Assembly (NCBI GenBank): GCA_017506865.1
Contig: JAFCMP010000334.1
Location: 310,001-374,000, forward strand
Reading direction: 5' to 3'
DNA: 64,000 bases
Source of the DNA: Tribonema minus
Lineage: Eukaryota > Sar > Xanthophyceae > Tribonematales > Tribonemataceae
A program made the position numbers and the translations under genes. Positions 7,061-63,808 of this stretch are shown here, piece after piece; positions within the stretch are counted from its first letter, which is position 1, and the number at the start of each line of letters is the position of its first letter. The notes below the pieces were generated by a model. The model had not been told where the DNA came from. It worked only from the letters and a program-made list of their open reading frames with translations, and ran no database searches.

Positions 7061-10000
7061 ATGCGAGGACACATGTACGTCGAAGTGCAGGGCGCCACCA
7101 ACCTTCCCAGCACTAAATCTCAACCATTTGGTAAGCCTTCGAAACACGCAGCACCCCACATGCCTCCAATTCACCTCACGTTGTGGTTTTCGCGCTCAAA
7201 GATTCTGCCTAGAGCGCGTGAACGTGGATCTAGTGCGTGTCGCCATTGCTGGTCTGGCCCAGGCTTGCGCAGTCAGCACAGCAGCATGCTGCATTCAAGA
7301 TGCGCTTTGTGTGTGGCCTCCAGCCGCTGTTCCGTGGAGGATCTGGACCTGCACAGGCCTCGGTGAAGCGCCATCGCTTGTCTCATGCATGTGGTCTCTC
7401 AACGCAGATTGTGCCAGACACCAGGACTTAACACCGAGAGATCAATGCTGCACAGACGCTCCACAGTTCTGTCAAATATGCAAGTGTCGTAAGGTCACAC
7501 AAAAAAGCGGTGCACGGAGCAGCACGAATGACGACTGTTGATTGATCTGCCCTTGCCTTTCTAATTCAGGAACGGCTTCCGCAAACACTCGACGGCTTCC
7601 AACATTGACCACAAGGGTTCTGTTTGTGACCGTGCTCTGCGCTCATACACTGAAACTCTCTCACATTGGTGTTGCGATGGATATAGCTAAAAATGCAGCA
7701 ATTATCAGGACACTCCCTTGTGCGACATGACAACATACATTATTGTCACAACTTCTTGGCCAGGCGATCAACTTGTCTTCCGCCATGCCTTGCTCTTGAA
7801 AATCCTGCAGTGTCGTCCACCCTCTGTTGAAGTAGCTCGGGCAGCAGGGGTTATGTAAGCAAGCAGGCTGCGCTCACAGATCGTGTCGGTACCTCGCAGC
7901 ACGCCCTGCATGCCATCCTTCATGACGCGTGCGGCAATGCGCTCGATGTAACCATTTCCTGTCTCCCTCTGCCATCATGCGTGACATGCGCGGCGCTGTG
8001 CCAGTCATAAACGCTAGATAGCTTGCACGCTGAAGCCCTTTTGACTAGCGTGTAGTGGTGGCACTATTTGACTCATGGCCAATTGCTGCAGCAGTGGCGA
8101 CCACGGCCATTGGTGGGTGGAAGGCACTGGCGGCTAACCACACCTTGTCACCTACAGCTCTATGATCTGAATCATTTTCAAACGTTAACCGTTCTCCCTC
8201 TGCCCTTCCCCATCGCTCAGGCGAAGGTGGCGAGGCTGTCGCGCCTACCACATTTGTGAAGGTCAAGGTGAACGGCGAGGAGCAGTTGACGCAAACCATC
8301 ACCAAGACGTACAACCCGTCGTATGGCGCTAAGTTCACCTTCAGCCCGGATGGCCCGCCTTCGGAACAGCTCTACTTCACCGTGGTCTGCAAGTCCACCG
8401 CTGGCGACATCTCGCTGTGCTCGGTGAGGAACCATCACTTCAACTACTTACAGTCCTTTTGCACTTCGTGATGGCTTTCTGGTGCCGTAGGCCGTGCTAG
8501 GACCCACAGCTGCGGAACTGATGTGACGCTAAATGTGAACGTCATCAGTGCTCTATCGGCTGCGCCTAGCGCACATGCTTACCTCACCCCACGCGCCTCG
8601 ATGCAACACCACAATAGAGTACGATCATTGGCTGTACTTCAGTCTCGGTAAACATGCTCAGGCTGCCACTATTTCAGCAGACAATCACCACTCCCCACAT
8701 GCACATGTTGCTGACACCCACACATGTCCTGCCCCCCATGCTGCCTCGCAGGCCCACTTGAAGTTCGAAGACATATGGACGGGCAGGTTCTCCAAGCTCC
8801 TAGGTGTGCAGCTGCTTGATAAGCAGGGGGCTAACGCAGGCATACTGCAAGTGTCTGCCAACTGGACGGAGACTGTCGGCGCGGCTACCAAGGCGCAGGG
8901 GGTCATTGAGCAGGCAAAGGAGCGCGCCGGCGACCTGAAAGAACAGGTGATTGACCATGGGTGACAGTTGGGGTTAGGGTAACGGGTTGGCTCCAACCCG
9001 AAGAGGTGGACTCGTGTCTCCCATGCTTAGTAACCTTATAGTGTGCAGGCTAGGTTTGCTGCTTGGTGACATGCAGCAGAACACTCAGGAAGGCAAGAAA
9101 GTGGGCCATTGGGGACGGGAGAGGGAGCGGGGGGCAGCGGGGGTTCTGGGTTTTGGGGGGGCGCAGGGAGGAGCAGACGGTATGAATGGGGCTCTTGTTG
9201 TATATGTGTACATAGCACTGCATGCATTTTTGTACAGAAAACACTGCACGACACCGCTCCTGTTAGCTAGCAGTGTGACTCACGTCAGCTACTTGGCACT
9301 ACACCATGAAACTGTCATCCATCCATGCAACCAACCATTATTTCCCCTGCAATTGCATTGCAGGCCCCCGTGAATATAAAATAAAATGTGACTCACTGAC
9401 TCACACTCGCAGTTCACAATCATGCACGCCATTGACTTTCTTCCCATTGAATTCTTGCAACCACCCCGCAGGCACTGGCGAAGGCGAAGGAGCTGGAGAT
9501 GGCGGCTGCGCCCAAGGTCGACAGCGCCGCGGAGCAGGCAGACGACTTCATTGACCGCAGCCTCACGCGCCTCACGGGCCCGCGGCCGCCGCTGCTGCGC
9601 GTGGACGCCTACTACTCGGCTGTCAAGATGGTGAGTATTCGACACATCGACATATGATCCGTTGGCTGCTTCAGTTCGATGATGGTGTGTTAAGTCCTTC
9701 GCCGCATGAGTCAATGAGACCAGGTCACCAGGGGACCTGCGGCCGCCGCTGCCGCGCGCGGACGCCTACTTCCCGGCGGTGACGATGGTGAGCGTTTGAA
9801 AACATGATTTGTCAGCTGCTTCAGTTGCATTGATAATGCTTGAATCCTTCAATGTATGAGTCAATGAGGTCTGTGAAAGCTGCTGTTGTGCGCGGAGGCC
9901 AACTGATGGTGAGGCTCAATGTATGATGCATCAACTACTCAACTACTCAACTACACGCTTGACAATGCGTCAACCACTTCATCTGCAGTATACTTAGTAC

Positions 10001-13000
10001 GTGAGTAATTCAAGCATGACTGGTGAGGAGCGCCACGGGCTCGTGGCTGTCGCTGCTGTGCATAATTGCCTATACATTGTGCAAACCCTCCCCTCTCTGA
10101 CGCTCAACGTTTTCTGTATGCTTTGCAACGCGCCGCAGGTCTACGGCACCGTAGTGGGCCTGCCCATCGTCAACAAGCTGGCGCCCATCTTTGAGAATGT
10201 GGTGGAGGGCGTGCTCAGCAAGACGCCCCTCAAGCCGCAGGTGAGGCTGCAACAGCGCTCATACCGTGGCGGAGTGCCACCTTGCATCAGCTTGAAGTAG
10301 AGGCAGGCATCGTTCTTGTGAAAAGTTTATGCTTCTACCGAACAGCAGCACTCATACCCCGTTGCGGAGTGTCACCTTGCAACAGTCCTCACTTTGAAGT
10401 AAAGGCTGTCTTGTTGCTGAACAATTGGTGCTGCTATGGGAGGCGCGTCTGGGCCCCCATGGTTGCATGAAAGACTTTTGAAAGCGCATCCACTGCTTTG
10501 TACGCATTTTCAAGGGTGGCCTCCCATCGTGCCTCCACCATTTCAAGACCCTGTTGTGCTCACGCCTGAGAGCATGCCCCAAGGTACCCCCCACATTCAC
10601 AGCCCGGCAGCCCGCAGGATGGTGCAGAGAGCAAGGGCCGCAGCATCGCACTGCCTGTCGATACCTGAGCACTGCAGTGGGGATGACATCAATCCAACCC
10701 CTATTTTGCACCAACCCCATCTGGGCTTGAGCAGGAAATTCACCCCCCCCCCCCCCCCCCCCCCCCCCCTCCTCTCTACCCTTGCAGCCCGGCAGCCCGG
10801 AGGAGGGCGCGGAGAGCAAGGGCCGCACCGTTGACTGCATCGACCGCCGCATCGACGGCGCGCTGAACGGCATTGACGAGTTTGTCGACACCAAAAAGGA
10901 CGAGGCCATCAAGGCGCTGTGCGACGGCAAGAACGCCATCAAGGTGAGTATTCAAGAGGGGCATGTTGCTACTTCAAGAATTCAAGTTCAAGTATATGGT
11001 ATCAGTGGTGATGCATTGGCGAGTTTGTGGAAACCAAGCAGGACGAGGCAATCAAGGCGCTGTGCGACGGCAAGAACGCTAGTAAGGCGCGCACGGCAAT
11101 GCTGGAGTATGAAAGAGGGGCATGCTGCTACTTCAAGAATTCAATTCAAGTGTATGGTATCAGCGGTGATGGTGTCCTGAACGGTATGGATGAGATTGTT
11201 GACGCCCAGAATGATGGGGTTATCACGGCGCGGTATTATGACAGCAACGCCATCAAAGTGCTTGATTGAAGATCACTAGGAACTCTCCATGCGCCTCTAA
11301 TGCATCAGATGTGTTCGCAAGACGTTGTAACCTCAAAAGCACATCTAAGAGCAGGGTAGCCGTGCATGCAGCACTTTCATTATCCATCTCCACGCAGCGA
11401 TTGACTCGCTGCTGGCATCAACCCCTCCCCTTCTTGGTCTGATTTCCGCATGTTGATCGTTGATGTTGGTGCCAGGGCATCAAGCCGAAGGACAAGTCCA
11501 TAGTGGAGGCGACGGTGGATGGCATCGGCTACAGCGTCGGCGCGACGCGCGACGCCATCACCGGCACTGTCCACGGCGCATTCACCAACGTGCAGGGCTT
11601 CATCGGCGGCATCTTCGGCAAGGTGAGCGCGGCTGCAGCGCTCAGTTGATGTGGCACGTCACCTCCCGCGCTGTACTGTTTCTTCTGCCGCCCCTGTACA
11701 TGTTTGTTCTGCAGCAGACACTTGCGCTATCGCCGTGCGAAAAGGCTCCCCAGAGTGTCCAGAAGCCGACAATCACAGGCAGCGTTTGGTGCAGTGCCGA
11801 CGAGCCCTGCCCTTGCGTCCCTTAATCGTGTGCGAGATAGCTATGGTTTTATTGCTCTCGGTGTCTGTTGAAGGGCCCTGAACCAATTGCTCCGAAAGTC
11901 TAGTCTGCTGGCACTCTCAGCCAGCAGACACCCAACGCCACGACAGCAAGCAAGGCAGAGGGTGAAGGTGCATGGAGGCCAGTTGGTTGATCATATGGCA
12001 CAAATCGATCATGTCCTCATCCACTCGTCACGATGGCCGGATGCTAGCTGGTGCATCAGGAAAACACTGGCAGTTTCTGCTTGTGCTTTTGCACGTGCTA
12101 AGCCGTCACGTTCGCATGCCTCCCACCAATAACTGCGGTCGCCGCTGCTTCCGTCGCCCAGGTCCAGGACACGAGCGCCTTCGCCGTGGACCAGGCCAAG
12201 TCCGCCGCCAGCAGCGCGCGGTCATGATCAGCTTTGCGCCGCAGCCCCAACAACACACCCCAGCATGGTCATCTTCCGCCTTCCACCGTACTTGCAAGTC
12301 CCATCGCCCTGCACTAACCCGCCCCTGCCCCGTGTCACTTCCTCACTTCAACTTCCACTACCCAGGTCCAGGACACGAGCGCCTCCGCCGTGGACCAGGC
12401 CAAGTCCGCCGCCAGCAGCGCTCAGGACGTGCTCGGCCGCACTGCAGAGGGCGTTAAGGCCAAGGCGACGGAGGCCGCGCACGCCGCCACCGACGCGGCC
12501 GGCAGCGCAGTCGCCACCGTCAAGAGCACGGCGGGCGGTGCGGTGGAGACGGTGCGCACGCGCGCGGGCGGCGCCGTGGAGGTTGTCAAGACCAAGGCGG
12601 GCGAGCTCACCGGTGAGCGCTGCTGCTAGTTGTGGTGGTGGTGGTGGTGCGGTCAACGTGTGCGTGTGCGCAGCAGGCCTTGTGTCGTTGAGTGTAGCGG
12701 TGCGGCTTGAATGCATCAAATGCGTCTGAGGATGCGTGCGCATGCGCGCGGGCGGCACCGTGGAGGTTGTCAAGACCAAGGTCGGCGAGTGAGCAGTGAG
12801 CGCTGCTGCTGGTGGTGGTGGTGCGGTCATCATATGCTGCTGGTGATGGTGATTGTGGTGGTGGTGGTGTTGCGGTCTTTGCATGCGTGTGCGGAGCACG
12901 ACTTATCGTGGCATTAGTTAGGCGTGGGCGTGTTGGCCAGCAGGTCTGCTGGAATGCATTAAAGCTGCCTGAAGGTGCTTGTAATGTGCAGCAAACCTTG

Positions 13001-13228: not shown

Positions 13229-13850
13229 AGCATCCATACATACAACACCGCCAACATGGCTTAGCAGCACACTGCACCCCCTGCCCAGTGGGGGGCTTGC
13301 GGGGGGGAGGGGGGGGGGGGCTGTGATGTGCACATGCAGCAGGGCCATCCGCTTGCTGCCAGCAGTACAGTACGTGTGCATTTCCCCTGACGATTCAGTA
13401 GCGCAGCAGCAGACATCAACATGTCGAGTTCCGATCAGCGACGGCAGATGCAGAAGAGGGGTGCTCGCAGCGGCAGCAACGCGCGTCGCCAATTTTTGAC
13501 ACGCGCTCTCATTCCGATTTTTGTACGCGCCTTCATTCAGCGCACGCCACACACACACTACATGTCCTCATGTGAGGCATTGCACTAGGTCCGACCTACT
13601 GCGCCGCAAGCGCTCTATGCACTATGTGTCGTTCAACTGGCTTGACTAGCTGCATGTGCTTTCACACCTTGGTGTCGGCCGCAATATGGGGAGTGGGACT
13701 GAATGGGGGGGGGGTGTCAACTTGCTCCCCCGCCCCTACTGGTCCTGATCCTCCTGCCCCCATTTTGTAGTTTGCCGGGGAGCTCGAAGAGACTGTGTCA
13801 CAAATGAACGCATGTAAACTACATCTAATGTTGTGCTTTTGTCTTGATGC
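13229..13850. other. No gene seen; 3' flank of C2 gene with G-runs
   Basis: This contains G-rich runs near 13302-13320 and 13706-13716 and otherwise unremarkable sequence. No ORF has supporting motifs. Confidence 0.4.
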
Positions 13851-14740
13851 TCTGTACTTTTTTTTAATTCTCGCTCAGGGCGCGAAACAGCCCAGATGAT
13901 GGTCTAACTTGATGCTGCTGTACGGAATCTGCATGTCGTGTGACTTTTGAAAGTGTCTCAACGATGCTCTGTACTTTTATTATATTCCACTTGTGGCTGT
14001 GGAAATGCCATGTTGTAGGTGTGTCGTGTCGCCTTGTTCTCACTCTTGGATGTAGCATGCAAAGCTTGCACGCCACACCCCGCCCCCCACATCACCCCCA
14101 ACAAAGCACCCGCAAGCGACTGTCCCCCACATAATGGCAGGGATACCAAACAAAGCTACAAGACTCTCCCCCCACAGACAAACCCGTCTTAGGGCCACCC
14201 AGCTCCACGCAGACTCCATCTCACAGTTTTCATGCAGGCCAAGGTCACCATAATGGGCCCTGAACTGGAGATTGTGGCTATCTACGTGAACCCCGATATC
14301 ATAAAGATGAGCAGAGGGACTCACTGCGCGCCAGGCGCTGACGCTAGAAAGAAAGGCTATATGACTAAGCAAAGTATCGCCTCCTTGATGAGCGGGACGG
14401 TGGTTCACCAGGCCTCCCATATCACCCCCAACAAAGCATCCGCAAGCGACTGTCCCCCACACACTAGCAGGGATACCAAACAAACCTGCAAGACTCTCCC
14501 CCCACAGACAGACCCTTCTAAGGGCCACCCAGCTCCACGCAGACTCCATCTCAAAGTTTTCATGCAGGCCAAGGTCACCATGATGGGCCCTGAACTGGAG
14601 ATTGTGGCTATCTACGTGAACCCCGATATCATAGAGATAAGCAGAGGGAATCACTGGGCGCCAGGCGCTGACGCTAGATGCTCTGTACTTTTTATTAATT
14701 CTCGCTCAGGGCGCGAAAAAGCCCAGATGATTGGCATCTA
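13851..14740. repeat. Tandem duplication (period 330 bp) bracketed by direct repeats
   Basis: Positions 14091-14347 and 14421-14677 are near-identical, offset by exactly 330 bp, starting ATCACCCCCAACAAAGCA and ending GGCGCTGACGCTAG. Both copies hold an open stretch reading AKVTIMGPELEIVAIYVNPD, with conservative changes between copies. The pair is bracketed by direct repeats at about 13854-13960 and 14682-14785 that share TAATTCTCGCTCAGGGCGCG. This could be a degenerate mobile element or a local segmental duplication. Confidence 0.7.
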
Positions 14741-14796
14741 GCTGTAAGGAATCTACATGTTGTATGACAGTCTGAAAGTGTCGCAACGACAACCAT

Positions 14797-15708: not shown

Positions 15709-15817
15709 CCGTCATCGGCGGCAGTGCGCATTTTTTAATTAGAGAAGACCCCTCTCGAATCACTCCCTCTACTACACACGAGACCAGAGTCAACCCACCA
15801 CCTCACCCCTCAGCACC

Positions 15818-16778
15818 ATGAAGTTCGTCATCGTCCTCGCTGCGATGCTGGGTGCGGCGACCGCTTTCGTGCCCGCCACCATGCCCGCCCGCGCTGGCAT
15901 GGCCGTGGTAAGTGTTTGCGCTGACGTTTGCGCATGATTTCTTGGCTTTGACACTTTGGCGCGGCTACACACAGGCCTGGTGCCCGTGCAGCTGTGGGGC
16001 GTGCGGAACAGCAGGCATAGCTGCGCTGCCTGGCTTGCGCTAGCCTGACGTGTGGTGGTCCGGCCATGCTGCAGAGAGTAGTCAAAGCCAACCAGTAGCT
16101 GCAGGGGCGCATACAACCCACCGGCACCTGCGAGAGCAGGCCAGAGCAGGCCACAGCATAGCGGTTGTTAACGTGATGAGCAGCTTCAGTGGCAATGCAC
16201 TGCGCTGGCAGCCGTAGGTGTATTGGGAGCTTGTGGTGCGGAGACGACGGGAGCAGCTCAATGATTCGGCAGCACCGTCTTGAGCAAGTTGTTGCGCAAG
16301 CCGTGCACACAGCGCTTTAAGGATCAATGCTGCTGCGCATTACTTTCTGCTTTCGCAGTTGTGGCTACAAGGAGTGCATGGCTCTCGCACCTGACGTTAG
16401 CTAGTCCTGTGGATGTTAGCCTCTCTTGTCAGCTTTCCACCGTTTTGTATGTTTGGATATTGGCGCATCGCGCACGATCGTTGACCGGCATACTTCTGCA
16501 CTAGCACGCGGCTCGTGGGTCTAAGGTTCTGTGACGTACGTACTTCATGGCTACCGCCTCCGCCAACCACACGGTTAGTTCGTGCACTCACGTTGTGCTG
16601 GTGCGCTCTTTGTGACTCCGCTCGACAGAGGGCCGAGGACGAGAAGCACCGTGGCGTGGGCGGCATGGCCGACACCCGTGACCCCGAGCCGGTCGACCAC
16701 GAGGACCCGCGCAAGTCTATCTCCAAGGCGCCCACGTTCGAGGAATACATGAAGCAGAAGCAGGCCGCCCAACAGTAA
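15818..16778 (+). CDS. Small plastid-targeted protein, 2 exons, 79 aa
   Basis: The exons are 15818-15907 and 16629-16778, joined in phase 0. The N-terminus (MKFVIVLAAMLGAATAFVPA) is a hydrophobic signal peptide ending in Ala-Phe-Val-Pro. That resembles the ASAFAP-type cleavage site of bipartite plastid presequences in algae with secondary red plastids. A short Arg/Ala/Met-rich transit-like stretch follows. The mature part is highly charged (EDEKHRGVGGMADTRDPEP, then RKSISKAPTFEEYMKQKQAA). I do not recognise the family. A stromal or thylakoid-associated location is inferred from the leader only. This gene is the best clue to the organism group. Confidence 0.75.
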
Positions 16779-17840: not shown

Positions 17841-17867
17841 CGCCCCTGAAATCATGCGTGCGCATCA

Positions 17868-18225
17868 TGCTGCCGTTGCTGGGCTGGGAAAAGATGAGCG
17901 TTGCAGCCCCACGTGCTCACGTCAGTGCTCAGGTGAGACAGGTGAGCGCTGCTGCCCGTTGCTCAGCTGGGAGAGATGAGCGCTGCCCCACGTGCTCACG
18001 TCATTGCCCAGCTGAGAAAGGTGAGCGCTGCTTGCTGCCCACAGTGCTGCATCATTGCCCAGCTCGGAAAAGGTGAGCATATGCTGCCCCCGCGCGCTGA
18101 CGTCATTCTCGGCTGGAAAAGGCGAGCGCTGCTGTGCAACTCATGTAAGTCATGCTCGGCTGGGAAAGGTGAGCACCGCTGCCCGCCGTGCTGCATCATA
18201 GCTCAGCTGGGAAAGGTGAGCGCTG
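17868..18225 (+). repeat. Minisatellite of eight donor-like units
   Basis: Eight degenerate units of about 40-65 bp each end in a variant of CTGGGAAAGGTGAGCGCTGC, a good 5' splice-site sequence. In the first and third units the donor reads ATGAGC instead of GTGAGC. An ATG-led stretch (MRAHHAAVAGLGK) occupies the first unit. A CTTTCTGCAG acceptor follows at about 18289-18298, and a short open frame in matching phase ends at 18365. This may be a tiny two-exon gene with an expanded donor region, but its coding status is doubtful. Confidence 0.6.
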
Positions 18226-18366
18226 CTGGCTGCTGCTTACCGTGCAGCGGCCTGCGGGGCCTTCTTGAACTCTGTCTCTGCACATCTCTTTCTGCAGATC
18301 AGCGGCTCGCGACGCGAATTTGCGAGAGGAGTGTACAGGTTCGCCAAGGCGCCTTGTCAGGGTAGC

Positions 18367-22320: not shown

Positions 22321-22340
22321 GCGAAATTCGTTGTTGAGCC

Positions 22341-24831: not shown

Positions 24832-25038
24832 CTACTCGTCGTTGAGCTCGCCGCCGCCGCCTCCGCCGCCGCCGCCGCCAACGCTGTCATCAGTGGTGTC
24901 GCCATGCTCGTCCATGGACGCGTCCTCGTCGTCCCCTCCCCCCTCCGAACCCCCTTCGTCATACTCCTCGCTGTCCCCAGCTCGTTGCACCACATCCTTT
25001 CCAGGCTCGGACTGAGCGCCACCGCTGCCGCTGCCGCT

Positions 25039-25084
<46 letters not shown>

Positions 25085-31618: not shown

Positions 31619-31676
<58 letters not shown>

Positions 31677-34273: not shown

Positions 34274-34306
<33 letters not shown>

Positions 34307-37079: not shown

Positions 37080-37084
37080 ACAGG

Positions 37085-44000: not shown

Positions 44001-45346
44001 ACGCAGCAGCGGCAGCAGCGACAGCGAGATGGGAGACTACGCTGCCGCCAGCCACGCGGCGCCGCCTGGCAAAGGTGGAAGCGGCGGCGGCGGCGCGCGC
44101 AGCCGCGGCAGCGCGCAGGGCAGCAGCGGCGGCAGCGGCGGCAGTGGTGCGCCGTCCGCGCGGCGCGATGCGGAGCGGAGAGCCGCTGGCAGCCAGCAGC
44201 AGCAGCAGCAGCACGTGCGGCCGCCGCAGCCGCCGCAGCAGCAGCAGCAGCGGCCGCAGCAACGGCACGCAGACAGCGGCGGCGGCGGCAGCAGCAGCGG
44301 GACGTACGCGCACATGGGTGGGGGACAGCTGGGGGCGCTGGCGGCGGCGGCGCGCGAGGGGCAGCTGGGGACGCTCGCAGCGGTCGCGGAAGAAGCTTTT
44401 GCTGCGCAGGTACGGGCACAGAGGCGGCGCCTCGCGCTAGCAGTAGAGGTCCAGACTTGTCTGCGCGTGTGTTTTGGCGTCGCTCGGGGGCAAAGGCGAA
44501 GGCGTGTTGACGCCGTCGTGTGCCTGTGCCGCGTCTGACGCCAATCGTGGTCAGTGGGTACTGTTTGTGAGACGGTTGTGCCTGCGCGCGTGTGCACTTT
44601 GCGTCGCAGCGGAATGCTGCAGTTGTTATCATGGCTTGCGCACCTGGATTGCGCGCATGCCATGGCAACACGGCAGCAAAGGATACCTGACAGCGCGCCT
44701 CACCGCACGCCGCACACCATGCAGGCCCCTCACTCCGCCTTGTCGTGAGGACCATGGTCCACCTGGTCACGCTCTCACCTGTTCGCTGCAGTACCTGTTT
44801 TCACGCGAGGGGCTGGATTCCTATCGTATTGATGTATGCAGCATGTACAGCGTATACATGCTCGCGTGCGCTGTGTCGTTGCGCTGCGCTGCGTACAGCC
44901 ACTCAGCGTCTCCTCCGCGCACGCGCATTCAGTCCGCTGCCGCGGCGACGGCGGCGGCGGCGCAACCCATCAGCGACAGCACCTCGCCCATTGCAACGCC
45001 CCCTCTCCGCTCCGCCGCGCCGCAGGCGGCGCCGCAGGCGACCCCCGTTGCGTTTGCCCCCCCGTCGTCTAAGCGGCCACGACACACGCCCGCGCTCAAT
45101 CCGGGCCCCCGCCCGCACATGCACGGCAGCGGCGGCGGCGGCAGCGGCGGCGGCGGCAGTAGCGGTGGCGGAGGCGGAGGCTCTCACACGGGCGGGCATT
45201 CCGGCCCCGGGCGGCCGTACGCAGCGCCGCCAGAAGCGTTTCCGGACCCCGGCTCAGGGCCCCCTCCCCCTGCAGGGGGGGGGCGCAGCAGCGCGCAGGG
45301 GAAAAGGGGGGGAAGGGGGCGGGGGGGCGGCGGCAGGCAGGACTAG
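38020..45346 (+). CDS. SPX-domain protein (inositol-pyrophosphate/phosphate sensing), 9 exons, 567 aa
   Basis: The exons are 38020-38112, 38289-38425, 40376-40438, 40880-41060, 42386-42511, 43075-43125, 43377-43434, 43829-44409 and 44933-45346. All phases agree. Residues 1-200 form an SPX domain. The N-terminus is MKFGKNLSRVIQELSLPEW, followed by YKQLKK|KIK, FFLNVEQQF and GFSKILKKHDRWTG. The Lys residues of the first helix, the LKKKIK segment and KILKKHD match the surface that binds inositol pyrophosphates. Residues 201-240 are short helices (LLRHAAALGAYAHALQE, IGANIEDMAQLRSFEQHIAG). The rest is Gly/Ser/Gln-rich with a possible nuclear signal (SSKRPRH) and no EXS, VTC, MFS or RING domain. A regulator of phosphate homeostasis is likely. 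The last exon's acceptor is the least certain. Confidence 0.88.
41110..41625 (+). repeat. Four 3'-edge copies of SPX exon 4
   Basis: The sequence GAGCTACTGCGGCTTCAGCA, followed by TCCTCAAGAAGGTGAG, closes exon 4. It recurs with decay at about 41128-41165, 41281-41318, 41393-41432 and 41574-41612. Two of the intervening spacers share GTGACGTTCGCCGTCGTGTG. The copy at 41281 keeps an intact AAG|GTGAGT donor. Confidence 0.85.
41890..42240 (+). repeat. Two 5'-edge copies of SPX exon 5
   Basis: Two blocks (about 41890-42045 and 42050-42215) repeat the intron end plus the first 40 or so bases of exon 5 (GCTGGACGGGCTACATGACG region). The shared upstream text includes TCATCTTG and GCTACGAACGCTTTTGCCTG. 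The real acceptor is at 42385. Confidence 0.8.
42590..42970 (+). repeat. Two 3'-edge copies of SPX exon 5
   Basis: The copy at about 42615-42699 is nearly intact (CACGACCATCGACCGCCTGT, then TCCGCGAG|GTACGT). The copy at about 42877-42962 is heavily decayed. Both begin with related text containing AACTTCAACATG or GTTCAACATG directly before TTGGAGCAC. Confidence 0.85.
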
Positions 45347-52984: not shown

Positions 52985-55900
52985 CTACTTTTGCTGCTGA
53001 GTCGTCTTCAAAAATTCCGCCATGGTGAGGAGCGACCACTGCCCCGGCTCCGTGCACAGCAGCACGTGCGAGTGAAACGCAAAGAGGCTCGTCCTGCGAG
53101 AGCAGCAGGTCATGAAGTGCACGTTAGTTGCTGCACTCGTGGCAAATGGTGCTTGGCATGAAGCAAGTAGAGTACGCAACGCTCAGAGCCGGGTGAGTTG
53201 ATGAGCGCAACGAGAGCGGCCTGCACGCTGTCAGCCCCGCCGTGACAGCTGCAGTCAGTATTTCCAAGGATGCTCAGTGCAAGTTGATGACCTCCTTGGC
53301 GGTGTCCTTGGAATTAGTAGTGATATCAGAACAGACATTATTGGTTAAGTTACTGACCAAGCAATGCAGAACTCTTACAACAATGGCCAGCGTCGGCGAT
53401 GCAGCAATTCACTGAGTTGCAGTTTGACCAGGCTACGTACGCAACGTCTTCTGAAAATGCTCCAATAGTCAGGCATTTTGTGGGCATAAGATGTATCTTC
53501 GGTATGGCCAATGGACGGCGCAAAAGAGAAAGGCATTCTGGGATGCAGCAAAGGGCATGGTCGACACAATCACACAGCACAGCATGGCACGCAGCACATA
53601 TTGACACCAGCAGCACGCTGTGCATCCTCTGCAGAGCATCGACTGAGCTCGACGCGGTGTGTCAAGCCGTGTGCCACACAAAGTTTGGGGCAAACAAATC
53701 GAGAACCCGTAAAACATAGAGGTGCGACCACCTGATGCTAATGTTTAGTAGCGCTGTGGTCCGGATGGACGCAACGCCGCAGCAAGACGGTGACTGCAAA
53801 TGAGACAGGCTCTTGCACAGAAAGCAGCGGCACCGAACTTCAACTTCGAAATTCGAGCGTTGCCGAGCGCTGCATCAACAAGCGCTCACCTGTGGCCGAT
53901 GCTGACAATGCTCTCCACATTGGACGCGGCCTCGTACAGGCGCGCCTCGTCGGGGCCGCCGAGGGCGCTGCAGCACGCAATCATAAGCGCACACGGAGTG
54001 CACAGAAACGTGACAGGGCGCTGATCGCGTTAACAATTACCGAGGCCCAGCACAGCTCAGCTGCCGATGATCACATGTATAACCGCTCAGCAGGTGCTGG
54101 CACAGGCGCAGCACCGGCAGCAGCAGTCGCGGCGGCGGGGGGGGCACGGTCAGCAAGTGCTCGGGGAGCACGCAAATTTGTTTGTGCTGACTGCCGCCAG
54201 TAACAGTGCTCTGCAATTGGCACCGCACGTGCTGAACACGGTAGAGCGGTTGCGTGAAGCAGAGGGTGCGGCGCTGATGCTCTGTCAGCCTGCTGATGCA
54301 GCGCAACGCCGCCGGATTGAGTGCCAAGGCGCGCGTACTGTTGCACAGCAATGAGCATCATAATGAACGCATTCCATGCCGCAGCAGCAATAAGCGTCAG
54401 GGTTGGTGTGACAAAGCTCATCAGATTGCGCACGAGCGCTGCCACACCAACGTCTATCAAGAGAAGGAGCTGCGAAATTGTTGCACGTTCGCATGGGTCA
54501 CCTCGTGGCTTCGTCGAGAAATGCCACCGCGGGCGGCTGCGCGAGCAGGCGCGCAAAGGCCAGCCGCTGCTGCTCCCCAACGCTCAGCTCGTCGGTCCAG
54601 TCCCGGACCGCCCCCAGGCCTCCGCTCCTGCGTCCAGAGGAGTGAGACGGACAAGCAAGCTTTCTGCCTCTGAACTTCAAGCTTGATGGCATCACTTCAA
54701 GCCATCATCTGCTTGGTCGGGTGTTGAGTTCGTCGCTTCCGACTCAAGCCACGCTCCGCCCTCCGCTCTAGCCGCCAAAGACAACCAGAAGGGGCAGAAA
54801 CCAGATGCAATTTGAAGTGCGCATACTTGAGCATGTTATTTTGTACAGGCCACCCTCTGCTGTTTGACCACTGCTCACCGGTTCTGCGCAGCTCCAGGCA
54901 TTCACTTGGCATACCTGACGTGCGCTTCAAGCGCAGCGGAGCGTACAGTCGCAATGAAAGAGTGGACTCACCAGCTATGCATATATGTACATACGTACGG
55001 CACGCCGACTCTGCCTCGCGCATAACGACGTCGCCACAGCCGGCGCTTCGCCCGACTGCACGTCAGCTTGCGCTGCGGCGCTTGGGTCGGTGGCGACCTC
55101 AATAACAACTTCAGTAAATACTTCCATTGCAACTTCAAGGCAGTGTGGCGGTACGGCAGTGGAGCCCTCGCCCGCCTCGAACTCCTGCACAACTACAGCC
55201 TTGCTCAGCGTGACGTCTCCTGAACCCAATGGTGCCGATGCAAGGAGGCTGCGCCAATGGCGAGCACAGTTCATTTTGCCATCTCGCACACAGCGTATTC
55301 ACGCGAGCTGCACACTCCAGCAGCGTCGCATATTGGCGGCGCAAGGTGACAGCAGCGCCGCAGCGCCTCCCGTGGCAGATGCTGCGGAACTGCTGAGGCC
55401 GTGCATGCACGCCTGTGACCGTCGCAAGTCTCAAAACTCCACACGCATAACCGCTGTGCACGGCAGCAATGAGAAACCCTCTGCTTCATGGCAGCTGCCG
55501 CCCAAACCACCAGTGTGACCCGCATTTGCACGTCCCTCAGACCTCTTGCGCATCTGCAGCGCGCCACGAACCACTCCCACATCAAGCATCATGAAAGCGT
55601 GCCAATGCCAACTTCACCTCAGGTCAAACGCCATACACTCCCCGACGTTCACGTACTTGAGAGTGTACACACATACGCATGCCCTACGCGGCAAACGACA
55701 TTTCCCAAGCATGCCTTACCTGGCGGCGATGTGACCGAGCCGCACCGTCTCGAGGGCGTGCATGATGGCAGCGTCCCCCTGCCCCCCCGCACCCCCCGCC
55801 TCATTGGGGTACAGGAGCTGCGTTCGCAGGTCCCCCAGGGGCATGTAGGGCTTCTGCGGCAGGAACAGCGCGTCGCGCGGTGCGGGGCGCTCTATCGCGC

Positions 55901-58900
55901 CGGAGCCGTAGGACCAGAGGCCGGCTATCGACCGCAGCAGCGAGCTCTTGCCGCAGCCGCTGCGCGTGGTGAGGGAACAGGGGGTAAGAGCGTGAAGGCC
56001 TCATGCTATTAGGCGCTTTCCGCAGACACTGCGCGGATCGGGAGCAGGCGCAAGAGCGCGAAGCTGTTGAGAATGGTGTTATGGATAGAGTAGCAGCGCA
56101 GGCGTCGTGTTTTGTTCGGCGCAGGCCAGCAGACCGGCGCGCTGCATGTCTGACGCCCTTTGGAGGCCAAGATGGGCAGGACCACCTCCACTGCTGACAG
56201 AAAACAGCAACAGCGCGCTGCAGCTGTGGTCGTAGCATTGGAGGCCAGGTAGGTATTTGCTGTATGCCGTGGCAGCAGCTTGTTCCGGAACTGCTGCACG
56301 TGAAGGTGCATCCTGACGACCGCTCGTGGTGAGCGTTGCTGCATCTTTGCACCAACCAGCGTCATGGCAAGACGCTGGGCTTCTGCAGCAAACACTCGGC
56401 AGTGTGCGCGTCCAGTGAGGCGCCTCTCATTGCGTGCGCGCGCGTACGACATGCATGCCCTGCAGCTCGCGCTGATGCCATGCATCAGACAGAGGAGCAC
56501 CGCACTGCACGTGGAGGGTTGGCGGTCAGGTGGCGGCAGCACCGCGAGCGTTTTTCCTCAACAAACAAAGACTCGCTCGCCTCGGTGGTTCGCAGCGCAG
56601 TACTGACACGAGGGAGAGTCACAGGTCGCAAACTGTTGCCAGACCTGGGGCTGTAGATGAGGAGGCTCTCGCCGCGCCGCAGTGCGAACGGCAGCGCGTT
56701 TGCAGATGAGACCGCACTTGGGGAAGTTCAACTTTGCTGAATGTTCAACAGCTGGATCTGGAAGATCACCACAAGCGCACGACGGCACAGTACGAGCCGC
56801 AGCTGGAGCAGCGCTGCTGACCTTGGACCGCGGACGAGGAGGCTCTTGCCGTGCCACAGCGCGAACGACAGCGCGTCGCAGATGGAGGTTGAATAATGTT
56901 TGAACATGGTCCACTGTTCAACTGATGGATGTTCAAGACTATCACTGTACGCTGAGGGATGTTCACAGTTATGTAACCGTTGCTGACCTGGGGCCGTAGA
57001 TGAGGAGGCTCTCGCCGCGCCGCAGCGCGAAGGACAGCGCGTCGCAGATGAGGCCGCGTATTGAAGTTGAAGTTTGTCCGATGATCAACTGCTGGATGTT
57101 GAAGATCACCACACATGAACGACGGTACAGTACGAACACAAGCAGCATAGCTCACCTAGGACCGTAGATGAGAAGGCTCTCGCCGCGCCGCAGCGCGAAC
57201 GACAGCGCGTCGCAATTGAAGGTTGAACATTCTGAAATGTTGAAGTTGTACACCATATGAGGGAGAGTCACCATTATGCGAACCGCCACTGACCTGGGGC
57301 CGTAAATGAGGAGGCTCTCGCCGCGCCGCAGCGCAAACGACAGCGAGTCGCAGATGAGGCCGCCGCCGTCCGGCGTGCGCAGCGACAGCGCCGTCACGCG
57401 CAGGCACACGCCGTCGTCTCGCGGCACGCTGCGCGCACGGGAAGCAAATGGCGCGAGTGTCACTTGACCGCGAACATACTTCTAGTGAAGTTGACTAGAC
57501 GTGTCGTCGTCTTGCAGCACGCTGCGGACGAAGCAGCAGATGGTGGGGAGAGTCACTTGACGGTGTACGTACTCTTCAAGTGAAGTTGACTAGACATGTC
57601 GTCGTCTCCCGGCACGCTGTGCAGATGGGCAGCGGACGGTGAGGAGGAAAGTCACTTGACAGTGTACGTACTCTTCAAGTGCAGTGAGATTATTCATGCG
57701 CACGTGGTTGTCAGGCGGCCTGCTGCAGGCGGGGAGCTCACACGGCACAGGCGGGCGGCAGAGTCACTTGACGGTTCATATACTCATCACGTATGAAGGT
57801 TACAGTGGTGGCCTCGCGGCCCGTCGCAGACAGGGAGCATCACGTAGCATAATTGCGAGGAGAGTCACTCGATGGCACATGTGCTCATCGAGTGAAGTTC
57901 ATGAGGCACGCGCGCCGTCGCCTCGCGATAACCAGGAGGGAGGGGTTGAAGCGGCGGGGACAGGGGGGCGATTCACCCAATTGTTGAGTGTAACCGTGAT
58001 GTTGGGGGTTCCACGTGTGACAAAAGAAAAAGGGTATCATGGGGCCACCACCTACGATGTGTGATGAGCAACGTACACAAAGCGGCTGCTACAAGAGTGG
58101 TAATGCTGCTGGATACCTCAGCGCAGCAGCCAGTCCAACGCTACCCCCACTCCAACGTTCACGCGTTGGGGCTTGTTCAGCTACTGCCGCCATGTGCTGC
58201 AGCCAACATTGACGGCAGCAGCTCACCGCCTAGAGCGATGCACAAGCTGCCACTCATCCTTTCACCCCCGACTAGAAAAGCCAAGCCACGCCTAGCGCTG
58301 ACAGCAACAGGTTGCCAAAGGTTGCCGAAATCATGCCTATGCACACGCTGTCGCACAAGGACGCTCTGACATCGCGCAGTCATTGGCCGCAATGTTTCAC
58401 GGTACCTGTATGAGATGCGTCCCGCTATGGTCATGAACAGCTGAAGCGTGCTGTTCTTGGCTTCCGGCAGCAGCGAGGTCGTCTCTGCAGAGGGGCTGGC
58501 CGGGCCCGGCAGAGCATCTGCACCGTTCAGAGAATAGCAAGAGGCACCGCAGGTTGGTGTGTTTGTGGATTGCAAGTTTGTGTTGCTTGACGCTTGGAGC
58601 ACCTGTTGGAGGACACTTGTGACACACCTTGCAGTGTACATGAACCAAGTCAGTTGATCACGATCTTCGCCGCATGAATTACTTCACGACGAGTCTCGCC
58701 CAAGAACAGTATCCTCAGGCATTCAGCAGACTCATTGGTGTGCTGGCCAGGGACTGACAGGGGTTCAGGTGCGACTGCTGCAAACGCTGGTGAAGATTAT
58801 GGCTACGCAGCACTATGGGTGGGCTCAGGCGAAGGCTGCGGCTGCGCCGGCAGCTGCCGCCAAAGCAGATCACACAGGGTGTACAAACCACCAACACTGT

Positions 58901-59149
58901 CCACTACATGGCAAACACTCGATGCATGCATTAATTTGTACACACAACAACATTATCCGTGCGAAGCTGTGCATGGCTACGTCTTCCACAAGAGTTGCTG
59001 CAGGCGCACTTTATTCTGCTGCGCCGAGCCCCAAGGAGGCGCCACGCACCATTGCCGACGCAACCATTGACGGCATCGCCAGCAGCGTTGATGCACTGCG
59101 GGGAATGAAAGTTGCAGTTGCAGGAGGGCGGCAGCGGTGGCGGCGGCGC

Positions 59150-59190
<41 letters not shown>

Positions 59191-62100
59191 CCAGCACCAG
59201 CAGAATTAGCAGCAGCAGCAATAGCGCGACAAGCACGTTGGACAAGAGCAATGTGGGCGAGAATTTACGATAATACGCTGTGGGAAGCGTGGAGTCGCTA
59301 TGGCAATCTGAGGCAATCGATTGTTCTTGCACTCAGGCATCGAGCGACGCTGGTCAATGCGCCCACTGCCGTGATGCCCATGACAATGCTTGAAGATTTA
59401 AGAAGACGCTACCATAACGCTCAGCAGGCGACGTGTGCATACCTACCTGCAGCATTCCTGGCAGGCTGTGCACGCGTTGCGTCTCGGCTGCTTGCCTGAG
59501 CAATGCCGCACAGAGGGCCTCACAGCCTCCGGCACTGATTAGTCAAGCAGAAAGGGCTTCATTGTGCACTTACGCAATCTGCAACATTGCACTGTTGACT
59601 GATCCATAGGCGAGTTGAGCGGGCGTGCCTGCGCAACGCAACTGAAAACGCACTCCTTAAGAATTTTTCTGCAATGCGTGAGCGCGTGAGATGAGGTCTG
59701 GATTGAAATGACTGTTACGGATGCGTAACTGCAAGTACCTGCAGCGTCGCCAGCAGTCTGTGCAGGCGCTCCGTCTTCGCGGCGGTGCACCTTCCCTTTG
59801 ACTTGACCACAGAGCCCATTTTAAATGCGGTACACTGTTTTGAAATATTCAAGCACTTGTCCTTTTGCTACCATGTGTGTCCTGCTACATGTGTCGATAC
59901 GTTCGATGGGGCACACAGTTTTGCAACAAACATTCAAACACTCGTTCCTTTTGCTGCCATGCATGTCCTGCTACATGTGTCGATACCAGCGAAGCGCTTC
60001 GAGGTGCTCGTGATTTACGCGTTGCGTGTGCACCTGCAGTGTCGCCAGCATGCCTCAACTGAAACCGTATTACCGTCTGCGACGCATGTGCACGCTGGAA
60101 GCGGGTGGATCGAACTGACCGTTGCGGATGCGTAACGGAGAGTACCTGCAGCGCCGCCAGCAGGCTGTGCAGGCGCTCCGTCTTGGCGGCGATCGTCGAC
60201 AGCGTCTGCACCTCGCGCACCAGCACGCTGAGCCCGCCCTGCGCACACCGCGCGTGAGGTAGCAACAGCGCTCAGCACGCATGATCCATGCGTCAAAAGC
60301 GGCGGCGTGCGAGGGAGCAGCAGCTGCAGCATGCGTGCGCGACCGAGCGTATAGCGCGTCAAAAGCGGCGGCGTGCGAGTGAGTAGCGGGCAGCATGCGT
60401 GCGTTACCGAGTGTATCACGCGTCAAAAGCGGCGGCGTGCGAGGGAGCAGCGCTCAGCACGCATGCTTGACAAAGTGAATCGCGCGTGAAAAGCGGTGCG
60501 CGCATGCATGCGTGATGAAGTGTATCACGCGTCAAAAAGCGGCGGCGCGCGAGGGAGCAACAGTGCTCAGCACGCGTGCGTGACCGAGAGTGATATCACG
60601 CGTCAAAAGCGGCGGCGTGCAAGTGAGCTGGGGAGGCATGCGTGCCTGACTCAGTGAACCTTTCGCGCTGAAAGCAGCAGCGCACTTGCCCCCCCCCCCC
60701 CCCCCCCCCCACGCCGCACCACCAACCCATGAGCATCCGCACGTGCACACAGGCTCGACCATGCTCAGCGTCGCTCGTATGAATTGGACTGCCGTGGCCG
60801 TAACATGACGTCGTCCCCACCGGCATCAGACATGTTGTACACTGTTGGTTCATGGCACTTCGGAGCGAGTACTTCGACAGGTTCGCCGTCTTGACTGCGC
60901 AAGCCCTTGAGCGTCCGCGCATGCGTACAGGTTCAAGCATGCTCAGCCTCGCTCGTATGCACCTGACTGCCGTGACCGTAGCATGAGAGTCGCGTTTGCC
61001 ACCGACGTCCCCCACTGGCGTCAAACACATGGACACTGATGCTTCATAGCACTTCTAAGCGAAGTACTCCTTTGACTCGCACGCGATAGTTGTGACTGCA
61101 CAAACCCTTGCTGCGTCAACTGCCACCAGCAGCTGCGTCCACTGACAAGCTAAGCCGTTGCCGTTCATCAAGTATCGCATCCCCACTGGCCATGCGCGCC
61201 ACCGCTCAACTGTATGACCTCAACAGCCATAGTCATCTGCAACATGACTGTCGCGTTCGCCACCAACATCCCCGATGGCAGCGCGTGTGGCAGCGCTCAC
61301 CTGTATGACAGAGTCATTGACGGTTACTTCGCTTGCATCATCCCCCCCGGTGGTAACGCGCGCATGAGCGCGCGCTCGCATGACCCTGAAAGCCAATGGC
61401 ATCCACAACATAACAATCGCGTTCGGGACTAACACTCTCAACGGCAATGCGCGTTGCAGCGCTCACCTGCACAACCCTGAACGCCATGGCCGTCTGCGAG
61501 GTGACAGACTCATTGACAGTTACATTTGCCTGCATCATTCAGCGCTCACCGACCCTCACTCGTATTGACCCCAAGTGTCATGACCACCTGCAACATACTG
61601 TCGCGTTTGCCACCAACATCACTGCCACCACCATAAATGCGCGCCAGCGCTCACCTGTATGACCCTGAAGGCCATGGCCGTCTGAGAGATGACGCCGTAC
61701 TCGACCTCGCCCGAGAAGTATCTGTGCGCGACCACCAGATACGGCAGGACCACTGTCATCCAGCTGAAGCTCTGCTGGAAGACATCGAGCTGTGCGCACG
61801 ACACGATGTTTGAAAGCATGGGAGGGGGGGGGCAGCGTCAGCGCATAAGCGGCAGCTACAGATTTGGGTGAGGCTGAGGCGCGGAGCATCACAGCATGAT
61901 GACGAGCACCACCACGGTGCGCGACGACCAGGTACGGCAGGACGGCCACAAGGAAGTGTGTGCGCTGCGACGGAGCAGCGGCACGCCACGGTCAGAGGAC
62001 TACTGCATCCGTCAATGACTTCTGTCGCAGAGATTTCTCACAGAGCAGCGCAGCAGCATTGTGCATTGTGACGGAGTATGGCATGACGGCAGCGTGGCGA

Positions 62101-63808
62101 TCCAGCCGAAGCAGAGCACTGCACCGTACTCGATCAGAAAGGTGAGAGAGCACGAGCTGCGACGCAGAGCAGCAGCGCACAACCGCCAGGTGTGGGCAAT
62201 GGCACTGCGGCCGCCATGCAGCCGCTGACGCTGCGCACTGTGCTGGAGCGTGTCCGCCTCAGTGCCCTAGATTCAAGTACTTGCGAAGTAGGTTCTGTGC
62301 GATACCTACGTACCTGTGCTGTCGCCTTAATGGTGTCCTCCGCTTCACTGTTGTACATTCAAGTAGGTCTGTGCAATGCCTACATACCTGTGCTGTCGCC
62401 TTGATGGTGTCCTCGGTGATGCTCAACGTCCGCTTCAGTGTCCTCAATTCAAGCGTGTCGTGTGCAATACCTACATAAATGTGCTGTCGCCTTTGTTGGT
62501 GTCCTCAGTGAACCTCAACATCAGCTTCAGTATCGCAAATTCAGTGGGCCTTGCGCAATATCTACGTACCTGTGCCGTCGCCTTGATGGTGTCCTCAGTG
62601 ATGCTCAACGTCTGCTTCAGTGTCCTAAGTTCAAATAGGCGTTGTGCGATACCTATACACCTGTGCTGTCGCCCTGATGGTCCTCGGTGATGCTCAACGT
62701 CCGCTTCAGCGTCCGAAGTTCAAGCAGGTCTTGTGCAATAACCTACGTAGCTGTGCCGTCTTGATGGTGTCCTCGGTGATGCTCAACGTCCGCTTCAGTG
62801 TCCTAAGTTCAAATAGGCGTTGTGCGGTACCTACGTACCTGTGCCGTCGCCAGTGATGATGTCCTGGGTGATGCTCAACGTCCGCTTCAGTGTCCTAAAT
62901 AAAAAGAAGCAGGTCTTACGCAATACCTACATATCTGTGCCGTCGCCTTGGATGGTGTCCTCCGCTAGGCTATTGTAAATTCAAGTAGGTCTCGTGCGAT
63001 ACCTACATACCTGTGCCGTCACCTTGGATGGTGTCCTCCGCTTCGCTGTTGTAAATTCAAGTAGGTCTCGTGCGATACCTACGTACCTGTGCCGTCTCCT
63101 TGATGGTGTCCTCTGCTTCAGTATCGTGAATTCAAATAGGCCTTGCGCGATACCTACGTACCTGTGCCGTCGCCTTGATGGTGTCCTCGGTGATGCTCAG
63201 CACCTCGCGCAGCAGCTCGCGCGTCTGCGCGGCCTCGCGTGGCCCGCCCTGCAGTAACGCGGCGACGTGACGAGTGAGAATTAGGGCTGGGGGCAGCAGT
63301 GCTCATCACGTGCGCTGGTGTGATGAGCTGGGTTTCCAAAGGCTGAATGCGCAAACATGGTTGTGTCCAGCTCATGACCTTTCTGATGGCACCCAATACT
63401 GTTGAAGCAGGTTTCGTGTGCAAGGCACTGCTGCGCGACACACTGCTACAAACTGCTGAACAAGATGACATCAGAGTGTCCTGCACTCGCTCAAAACGAG
63501 CATCTGCAGGGAATATGAGAGCCGCGAACCGCACTTGCGATCTGACAGACAGCACATGAGAACACCAGCGAGCATCCTGTTGAAAGCACGACAGTGAATT
63601 GCGCACATTTCAGCTTTGCCTTCAACACACTACATACCTTTTGACACCAATGAGATGACTCACTCAACTTAGAAGAGCGCCCACACAGTGCTCAGCAGCA
63701 CAGGCGTGAGCAGACACGGGGACTGCGGCATGCACTTACATCATAGAAGGCGATTTCTTCCGCGTGCTCCCTCACGCGGACGAGCCCGAACCTGAAGTTG
63801 GCTTCTTT
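52985..63808 (-). CDS. ABCD-type ABC half-transporter (5' end outside window), 10 exons seen, 417 aa
   Basis: The exons are 63808-63740, 63248-63162, 61774-61655, 60238-60146, 58602-58406, 57428-57294, 55959-55720, 54627-54502, 53967-53890 and 53093-52985. All phases agree. The first exons carry the membrane-domain EAA-like motif (FRFGLVRVREHAEEIAFYDG) and VVLPYLVVAHRYFSGEVEYG, typical of the PF06472 (ABC_membrane_2) family. The nucleotide-binding domain has Walker A GPSGCGKSS (232-240), Q-loop LPQKPYMPLGDL, signature LSVGEQQ (328-334), Walker B VAFLDEAT (Asp352, Glu353) and H-loop His381. The D-loop reads SALG instead of SALD. Relatives move acyl-CoAs or fatty acids into peroxisomes or plastids, or act in bacterial SbmA/YddA-like systems. 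The N-terminal membrane spans and targeting signal lie beyond 64000. Confidence 0.88.
56640..57215 (-). repeat. Four 3'-edge copies of the ABC Walker-A exon
   Basis: The end of exon 57428-57294 (CDSLSFALRRGESLLIYGP plus donor) is repeated at about 56640-56710, 56818-56888, 56987-57057 and 57155-57222, roughly every 170 bp. Each copy is about 70 bases of exon text. Junction sequences include ATTGAAGTTGAAGTTTG and GAAGTTCAACTTTG. Confidence 0.85.
57495..57725 (-). repeat. 5'-edge copies of the ABC Walker-A exon
   Basis: Upstream of the exon, blocks with GTCGTCGTCTTGCAGCACGC and GTCGTCGTCTCCCGGCACGC repeat the acceptor and first 20 or so exon bases about every 100 bp. Each is preceded by GTGAAGTTGACTAGAC and followed by the shared GAGAGTCACTTGACGGTGTA or a close variant. 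Confidence 0.75.
59137..59499 (+). CDS. Possible nested antisense ORF with poly-Ala tract
   Basis: Within an ABC-gene intron, on the opposite strand, an open frame encodes a CAG-repeat-derived poly-Ala tract. It is followed by a protein-like segment (ARWTRAMWARIYDNTLWEAW, then LRQSIVLALRHRATLVNAP) ending in TGA. Codon use is mixed rather than GC3-rich, unlike the neighbouring exons. The only ATG in frame before the segment is inside it (ARWTRAM). A possible upstream piece at about 59003-59110 reads KEAPRTIADATIDGIASSVD in another frame and would need splicing. No family is recognised. Confidence 0.35.
59150..59215. repeat. CAG trinucleotide repeat
   Basis: About 19 CAG units with a few CAA/CAC interruptions, inside an intron of the minus-strand ABC gene. 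Confidence 0.85.
59735..59785 (-). repeat. 3'-edge copy of ABC exon 60238-60146
   Basis: The exon end AAKTERLHSLLAALQ with donor GTACT is repeated about 390 bp downstream as an AAKTERLHRLLATLQ-like copy with GTACTTGC. This is a single decayed copy. Confidence 0.75.
60260..60670 (-). repeat. Minisatellite of intron sequence before an ABC exon
   Basis: About seven units of roughly 60 bp share GCGTCAAAAGCGGCGGCGTG, then GAGGGAGCAGC and CTCAGCACGCATGC. The array abuts the acceptor of exon 60238-60146, so it expands the intron end rather than exon text. A 22-C run (60689-60710) follows. Confidence 0.8.
61240..61640 (-). repeat. 3'-edge copies of ABC exon 61774-61655
   Basis: The exon end (QTAMAFRVIQ plus donor GTGAGCGCTG) recurs with decay at about 61300, 61375-61400 and 61450-61520. 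The copies are separated by shared intron text (GTCGCGTTCGCCACCAACAT and variants). A related pair of spacer duplications lies at 60729-61080. Confidence 0.8.
61878..62130 (-). repeat. 5'-edge and internal copies of ABC exon 61774-61655
   Basis: About 61885-61945 repeats the VVLPYLVVAHR segment. About 62055-62125 repeats the exon start (CTTCGGCTGGAT, then CTGCCGTCAT). Both lie in the intron upstream of the true exon. Confidence 0.7.
62265..63161 (-). repeat. Array of about ten 3'-edge copies of ABC exon 63248-63162
   Basis: The exon end encoding ITEDTIKATAQ plus the donor GTACGTAGGT is repeated about ten times directly downstream of the real exon, every 73-96 bp. Most copies keep CAG|GTACGT or CAG|GTATGT, so they carry intact decoy 5' splice sites. 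Unit junctions carry AATTCAAGTAGG or AGTTCAAATAGG. Confidence 0.9.

Follow-up and report, generated by a model that had tools for sequence, protein, structure and literature searches.

Exon-edge arrays in the window

The window, the whole 64,000-nucleotide stretch that was analyzed, covers positions 310001–374000 of contig 334 in the 158.2-Mb, 554-contig assembly of the xanthophyte Tribonema minus. A T. minus kinase from the protein database agrees in the first part of its sequence with a reading frame of locus L049 on contig C223. A green-algal host was rejected, since a kinesin and a NEK kinase have their relatives mainly among ochrophytes and other stramenopiles. Genes were modeled with a small self-built gene finder trained on Pfam-matched exons. 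On these training data, it recovered 46 or 47 of 48 Pfam-bracketed splice sites (five settings). Within 21,183 bases of Pfam-bracketed introns, it placed 2 weak exons. All models below came from the gene finder, and TUP1 was also identified by homologues. The other names were taken from reading the predicted proteins and from an earlier note on this DNA, hereafter the original prediction.

1051–5582, minus strand: putative CSTF2-like gene
8221–12612, plus strand: putative C2-domain protein
15814–16778, plus strand: small two-exon gene
24832–34468, minus strand: TUP1
40880–44146, plus strand: putative SPX protein
53890–63248, minus strand: putative ABC transporter

When TUP1 was spliced without any of the copies described below, its WD40 part aligned with Ectocarpus TUP1 at 53% identity, and intronic copies contributed zero residues to the alignment. 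Three reading frames from the SPX region matched no Pfam family, a plasmid search using an SPX exon as query gave no match, and an Rfam search of the 64-kb window gave none either. The small two-exon gene starts with MKFVIVLAAMLGAATAFVP, which resembles the bipartite plastid-targeting signal of secondary algae.

Duplicates in the window were located by self-comparison, followed by direct reading of the sequence. The original prediction placed copies of exon edges in introns of the C2, TUP1, SPX, and ABC transporter genes, on both strands, and self-comparison found them there. Direct reading agreed with the content proposed for them: copies downstream of an exon carry the exon end with the donor, and copies upstream carry the acceptor with the exon start. 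At least one junction-spanning copy was present in 14 of the 25 modeled introns of the window, in these four genes. The 3 introns of the CSTF2-like gene contained zero junction-spanning copies. The SPX intron after exon 42386–42511 is outside the 25 because a weak exon model interrupts it. The arrays are as follows (percentages are identities).

9472–9630, plus: C2 exon with its end and donor copied downstream (9576–9718 against 9733–9868, 74%; exon model)
10788–11260, plus: array span of C2 exon 10788–10943 (pairs 80%, 73%, and 91%; sequence read), donor-side copies at 11013–11171 and 11177–11260
10600–10642, plus: acceptor-side copy of the start of C2 exon 10788–10943
12157–12823, plus: array span of C2 exon 12366–12612 (self-comparison, reading, and exon model), acceptor-side copy at 12157–12217 (98%) and donor-side copy at 12736–12823 (89%)
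28424–29266, minus: TUP1 exons 29072–29266 and 28424–28603 and the 468-bp intron between them, with a donor-side copy at 28894–28991 (90%) and an acceptor-side copy at 28728–28801 (93%)
29960–30304, minus: young tandem array on the donor side of TUP1 exon 30236–30434 (128-bp units, 97%)
30362–30951, minus: acceptor side of TUP1 exon 30236–30434, copies at 30632–30708 and 30841–30951 (pair identities 88% and 86%)
32669–33089, minus: acceptor side of TUP1 exon 32669–32795, copy at 32920–33089 (72%)
40880–41636, plus: donor side of SPX exon 40880–41060, copies through 41131–41636
42113–42923, plus: both sides of SPX exon 42386–42511 (self-comparison and sequence reading), acceptor-side copies at 42113–42206 (89%) and donor-side copies at 42613–42713 (91%) and 42857–42923 (78%)
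56610–57363, minus: four donor-side copies of ABC transporter exon 57294–57428
57412–57685, minus: acceptor-side copies of ABC transporter exon 57294–57428
59699–60191, minus: donor side of ABC transporter exon 60120–60238, copy at 59699–59784 (88%)
61192–61693, minus: donor-side copies of ABC transporter exon 61655–61789
62286–63188, minus: ten donor-side copies of ABC transporter exon 63162–63248, spaced ~75–92 bp

The 128-bp TUP1 unit consists of 69 exon and 59 intron bases, and its 97% identity extends across both parts. The C2 pair 10870–11013 and 11013–11171 abuts, with 80% identity. Both cases support the origin put forward in the original prediction, namely short tandem duplication. 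Abutting pairs had a median period of 110 bp (5–95% range, 64–227), and two that were checked shared 0–1 bp at the joint, which gives no support to microhomology. Copies in one array tend to share their exon breakpoint, for example 47, 47, 44, 41, and 38 bases in the C168 array, which is expected if one founding duplication was then amplified.

Two other repeats were seen in the window. At 17868–18237, a donor-like unit, CAGCTGGGAAAGGTGAGCGCTGC, is repeated about six times. No modeled exon adjoins this array, which possibly marks the edge of a gene missed by the models. In the gap between the C2 gene and the model that follows it, at 13843–14789, a 273-bp segment is repeated at 93% identity with a 57-bp spacer, and a second repeated pair flanks it.

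Exon edges recur in introns across the sampled loci

Genome searches with the Pfam families ABC_tran, kinesin, and Pkinase gave 68 loci, which were taken with 1.5-kb flanks, and eight further stretches were added by genomic place. The analyzed set comprised 67 merged stretches and 343 kb including the window, ~0.2% of the genome. This sample is small and non-random, as loci were selected by best Pfam match.

According to the original prediction, the text of exon edges should recur nearby more often than mid-exon text. We scanned the sampled 343 kb with 60-mer probes after removing low-complexity probes and targets shorter than 100 bases. Of 274 splice edges of gene-finder exons, 77 had their text repeated in the adjoining intron (donors 35/126, acceptors 42/148), whereas mid-exon text recurred in 3 of 186 cases (Fisher p 5e-16). 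With exons fixed by Pfam matches, 17 of 58 60-mers from the exon end recurred downstream, and 20 of 53 from the exon start recurred upstream. The figure was 5 of 83 for text from the exon middle (1/45 downstream, 4/38 upstream) and 2 of 61 for crossed probes, with start text searched downstream and end text upstream.

Coding edges without a splice site were used as controls. Recurrence was found at 1 of 22 predicted starts and at 0 of 16 Pfam-fixed kinase stop codons, the latter a weak control because several of these genes are intronless with low third-position GC. Predicted stop codons were positive in 9 of 41 cases. Among these nine, 3 fall where a kinesin domain is still incomplete, and a strong cryptic donor accompanies two of those 3 as well as 2 others. 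These five look like mis-called donors, and 4 remain unexplained.

Junction-spanning copies were present in 44 of 98 modeled introns, and 20 of the 41 loci with modeled introns had an array. The 21 loci that lacked one included three multi-exon kinesin genes with low third-position GC. The copied exon part had been put at 30–90 bases; at the 36 junctions measured, out of 114 examined, the longest exon part ranged more widely, from 10 to 118 bases, with a median of 43. The claim that whole exons are never copied nearly held: among 133 internal exon models, two lie within a duplicated segment, one 27 and the other 66 bases long. Duplication of whole exons is thus not the pattern here.

Third-position GC and duplicate coverage were not significantly correlated (rho 0.26, p 0.21, 25 genes). 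Duplicates covered 0.6% of single-exon kinase loci versus 17% of kinesin loci, a comparison that carries little weight because several of these kinase genes are intronless with low third-position GC. The single-exon kinase loci (C112, C90, C179, C467, C359, and C21) have a third-position GC of ~0.53–0.74, unlike most sampled genes, and may come from another compartment, for example foreign or viral insertions. Kinase matches with equal or near-equal scores and collinear spacings occur on different contigs in C90/C179 and in C144/C223/C278, which suggests allelic contigs. If so, comparing the alleles could directly reveal changes in array copy number.

Divergence of the copies

We examined 41 exon–copy alignments that cross a junction with at least 25 columns on each side (23 introns). 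Their exon parts differed by 9.4% and their intron parts by 18.1%, as expected if the exon is constrained while copy and intron both evolve freely. For copies found by exon text, the corrected intron/exon divergence ratio was 2.36 (67 pairs). For copies found by intron text only, divergence was 8.9% in exon and 14.2% in intron text (25 pairs, ratio 1.6), and 25 of 32 such copies carried the exon edge.

Indels in the copies were mostly not multiples of three (46/49). Differences between exon and copy amounted to 15.6% at third, 10.2% at first, and 8.8% at second codon positions; silent changes in the exon itself would produce this third-position excess. The donor GT was retained in 31 of 38 copies (neutral expectation 83%) and the acceptor AG in 28 of 30 (neutral expectation 79%, p 0.07). 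We conclude that the copies mostly evolve freely, and they look like neutral by-products. The proposal that they provide backup or decoy splice sites thus found no support, as splice dinucleotides appear to persist at about the neutral rate and frameshifts seem to be free in the copies.

Comparison of copies with one another gave a corrected divergence of 0.117 for exon-derived and 0.223 for intron-derived text (78 pairs), whereas plain neutrality predicts equality. Part of the gap may arise because copies were selected for their likeness to the exon; the exon may also have converted copies occasionally. Exon-to-copy gene conversion was itself suggested by a test in 12 of 12 arrays, but some of the intron text aligned in this test was non-homologous, and its copies, too, were selected for exon similarity. 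Reversing the choice drops the ratio to 1.6, so gene conversion is unneeded, though possible.

Progressive decay away from the exon, another element of the original prediction, survived as a weak trend. The nearest copy was the best match in 16 of 29 arrays versus 11.2 expected, and similarity fell with distance at a mean rho of -0.27 (14 arrays with at least three copies, p 0.054). A strict conveyor belt, in which the nearest copy is always the youngest, was rejected on the same counts.

Position of the duplicates relative to junctions

The original prediction described the duplications as anchored at splice junctions. The contrast between edges and exon middles is no proof of aiming, because duplications inside exons would be purged and random duplication with purifying selection yields the same contrast. 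We therefore compared the positions of duplicate clusters with a simulation in which tandem duplications fell uniformly over introns, the exon was constrained, and duplicates were detected in the same way (250–260 introns per setting).

A junction was spanned by 49 of the 75 observed clusters. Over 98 introns, 57 of 196 junctions (29%) were touched and coverage was flat with distance from the junction; interior points were touched as often (28%), since arrays extend deep into the introns. Of the 13 non-spanning clusters in introns up to 1100 bp, 12 lay within 64 nt of a junction, versus 3.6 expected by placement. The uniform simulation with matched intron length, at a slightly lower coverage (0.21 versus 0.265 observed), gave 75 of 150 clusters spanning and 15% of junctions touched; of its 44 non-spanning clusters in introns up to 1100 bp, 18 were within 64 nt of a junction. 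With clusters treated as independent, observation and simulation differed at p 0.03 for spanning, 0.001 for closeness, and 7e-5 for contact.

The simulated spanning fraction depends on the assumed starting intron length; four other uniform settings gave 0.42–0.61 versus 0.65 observed, and junction contact of 14–18% at higher coverage. Simulations in which 60–90% of events fell near junctions matched the observation better. Spanning clusters held more alignments than non-spanning ones (2.6 versus 1.7 per cluster), and the uniform model also produced such a difference. The excess at junctions that remains over the uniform model is about two-fold. Anchoring is partly supported, by an excess over uniform duplication; the edge contrast first offered for it is also what random duplication and selection would give. 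Purely uniform duplication plus selection fell short at junctions, although its rejection is incomplete.

Duplicate coverage and intron length

Within introns, 26.5% of bases belonged to local duplicates. The corresponding share was 6.5% outside gene models and 7.5% in exons, where the duplicated bases were mostly at edges. In deep exon interiors, 12 of 24,382 bases were in local duplicates. The ratio of intron to outside coverage was 4.1 (bootstrap 2.8–5.9). In the 98 better-supported introns, 18.8% of bases were in junction-spanning clusters and 7.2% in non-spanning ones, and coverage more than 1 kb from any predicted exon was 7.0%. Since the non-spanning and the distant values are about equal, the intron excess is the edge-linked part (18.8%), and a background duplication process is present everywhere.

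Introns with duplicates were longer than those without (median 793 bp, n = 51, versus 506 bp, n = 47; p 3e-4), in agreement with the suggested link between the duplications and intron growth.

Telomere-like GGGTTAGGG was found in 12 of the 98 introns in gene sense and as the reverse complement in 6; such interstitial telomeric sequence may be a trace of break repair. Duplicate-bearing introns were enriched in telomere-like GGGTTA and in TTGAAGT words. A shared motif as the cause was set aside, as these words are found in either orientation and most introns lack them.

Origin of the arrays

The account that we favor, and hold to be somewhat more probable than all else together, combines frequent short tandem duplication, purging in exons, survival of duplications that straddle a junction, and expansion by sustained homology. 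Short tandem duplications would arise often in the T. minus genome, founded by slippage or end joining. One inside an exon would alter the protein and be removed by selection. One that straddles a donor would leave the exon body, the first copy, and the second copy in a row, with only the first continuous with the exon. Splicing would be unchanged and the second copy would become intron, with the mirror image at acceptors. The copies would then evolve without constraint in a lengthened intron. Because selection freezes the exon edge, its similarity to the copies would outlast that between two intron segments, and edge arrays would stay visible longer. The same sustained homology would keep arrays expandable by slippage or unequal exchange, so that they accumulate at junctions. 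The copies, their positions, their near-neutrality, the privacy of the tested arrays to their loci, and the association with intron length come from the data; we infer both the DNA-level duplication mechanism and the role of sustained homology in the extra pile-up at junctions. Against this account, uniform simulations with a frozen edge, run without sustained homology, miss the observed junction contact and closeness, and exon-derived text differs less between copies than plain neutrality predicts. At one locus (L029, 960–1420), an insert with inverted ends of the ATAAGAGCGGT type fills a gap inside an exon-edge array and is like a small non-autonomous DNA transposon.

The shortfall of the uniform simulations could instead mean that something tied to splice junctions starts duplications there, with the copies still neutral by-products. 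Co-transcriptional R-loops, splicing-coupled pausing, nucleosome edges, and the exon–intron GC step are candidate triggers. We regard such a hot-spot as a possibility of roughly one chance in a handful or slightly better. It gains from the closeness of non-spanning clusters (12/13 versus 18/44 simulated), from the numbers of clusters spanning (49/75) and junctions touched (57/196), which near-junction simulations fit better, and from the absence of recurrence at Pfam-confirmed kinase stops (0/16), weak as that control is. It is at odds with the flat coverage and the equal contact at interior points, and in introns up to 700 bp the closeness was non-significant (5 clusters, p 0.16). Misplaced predicted junctions could make some clusters look close, and 4 of the 9 positive predicted stops (of 41) stay unexplained after the 5 probable mis-called donors. 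With the same reserve, transcription or splicing might make the exon–intron border prone to duplication; introns would then grow from their ends inward, and splicing would drive their lengthening. That the copies are retained for a function, whether as backup or decoy splice sites or as regulatory exons, appears improbable from their sequences. The acceptor AG is kept somewhat more often than expected (28/30 versus 79%, p 0.07) and exon-derived text is less diverged between copies than intron-derived text, but donor GT retention is exactly neutral (31/38), 46 of 49 indels break the frame, first and second codon positions change freely, and the divergence ratio of 1.6–2.4 is about that predicted for neutral copies of a constrained exon.

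Two further explanations are very improbable. In the Rogers model, introns are born by tandem duplication of exon text holding AGGT, and the copies would be remnants of such births. Tandem duplication is a known route of intron gain (PMC3443670, PMC4974935), but the model predicts a period equal to the intron length with both junctions joined, and 1 of 75 clusters touches both ends. The copies observed include text from either side of a single junction that already exists, and the intron around them is longer. An assembly or gene-model artefact would fit with arrays known from the assembly alone and with self-made gene models that were trained and checked on the same exons. The copies, however, are mostly 70–98% identical with independent changes, unlike mis-assembly, and the same pattern surrounds exons fixed by Pfam matches.

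Under the favored account of tandem duplication with surviving junction-straddling copies, one genome shows the stages of a process, intron lengthening without transposons, that is poorly documented: young arrays at 97% identity, middle-aged copies, and faded ones, all of which can be dated against the frozen exon edge as an internal clock. Intron lengthening by this route becomes measurable, and a clean test of junction hot-spots is offered. Annotators should be aware that an intron copy of an exon end can be mistaken for an exon when its GT or AG is intact.

Comparison with known systems

Among the matches listed in a search of the open-licence literature, we recognized no report of splice-edge arrays at this scale. 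Isolated cases have been published; a genome with more than a quarter of sampled junctions carrying copies was not found among those matches.

The arrays resemble introners (PMC9860276) in that many introns of one genome are affected. Introners are a dispersed family, whereas the T. minus arrays tested match their own genes only. Seven arrays (four from the window, three from kinesin genes) were searched against the whole genome, with very common words skipped. Each matched its own locus only, including the ABC transporter array at 62286–63188, apart from one 44-bp match and two short exon edges of kinesin paralogues. As all seven are private to their locus, they are not introners, and the original prediction was right to set introner insertion aside for them.

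Short direct repeats near intron borders are reported in PMC11782384 as 4–30 bp pairs at opposite intron ends and are read there as marks of insertion. They share with our arrays the closeness to splice sites. The T. minus units, in contrast, are ~60–280 bp long, and their repeats all lie to the same side of a junction.

That introns can be gained through tandem duplication is accepted (PMC3443670, which cites Hellsten 2011 and Gao and Lynch 2009). As in T. minus, such duplications are local, lie within genes, and are tolerated because splicing hides them. In intron gain, both ends of the new intron come from the duplicated AGGT, whereas the T. minus duplications straddle an existing junction.

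The nearest case is the potato RdRp gene, in which a tandem duplication across an intron–exon border is reported to have produced a new intron (PMC4974935). Abutting units holding both exon and intron bases, of the potato type, were found in T. minus (the 128-bp TUP1 unit, the C2 pair, and the 41 alignments). The potato case is one event in one gene, and T. minus has multi-copy arrays on both sides of exons at many junctions. In potato the outcome was a new intron; in T. minus, judging from the sequence, it appears to be longer introns.
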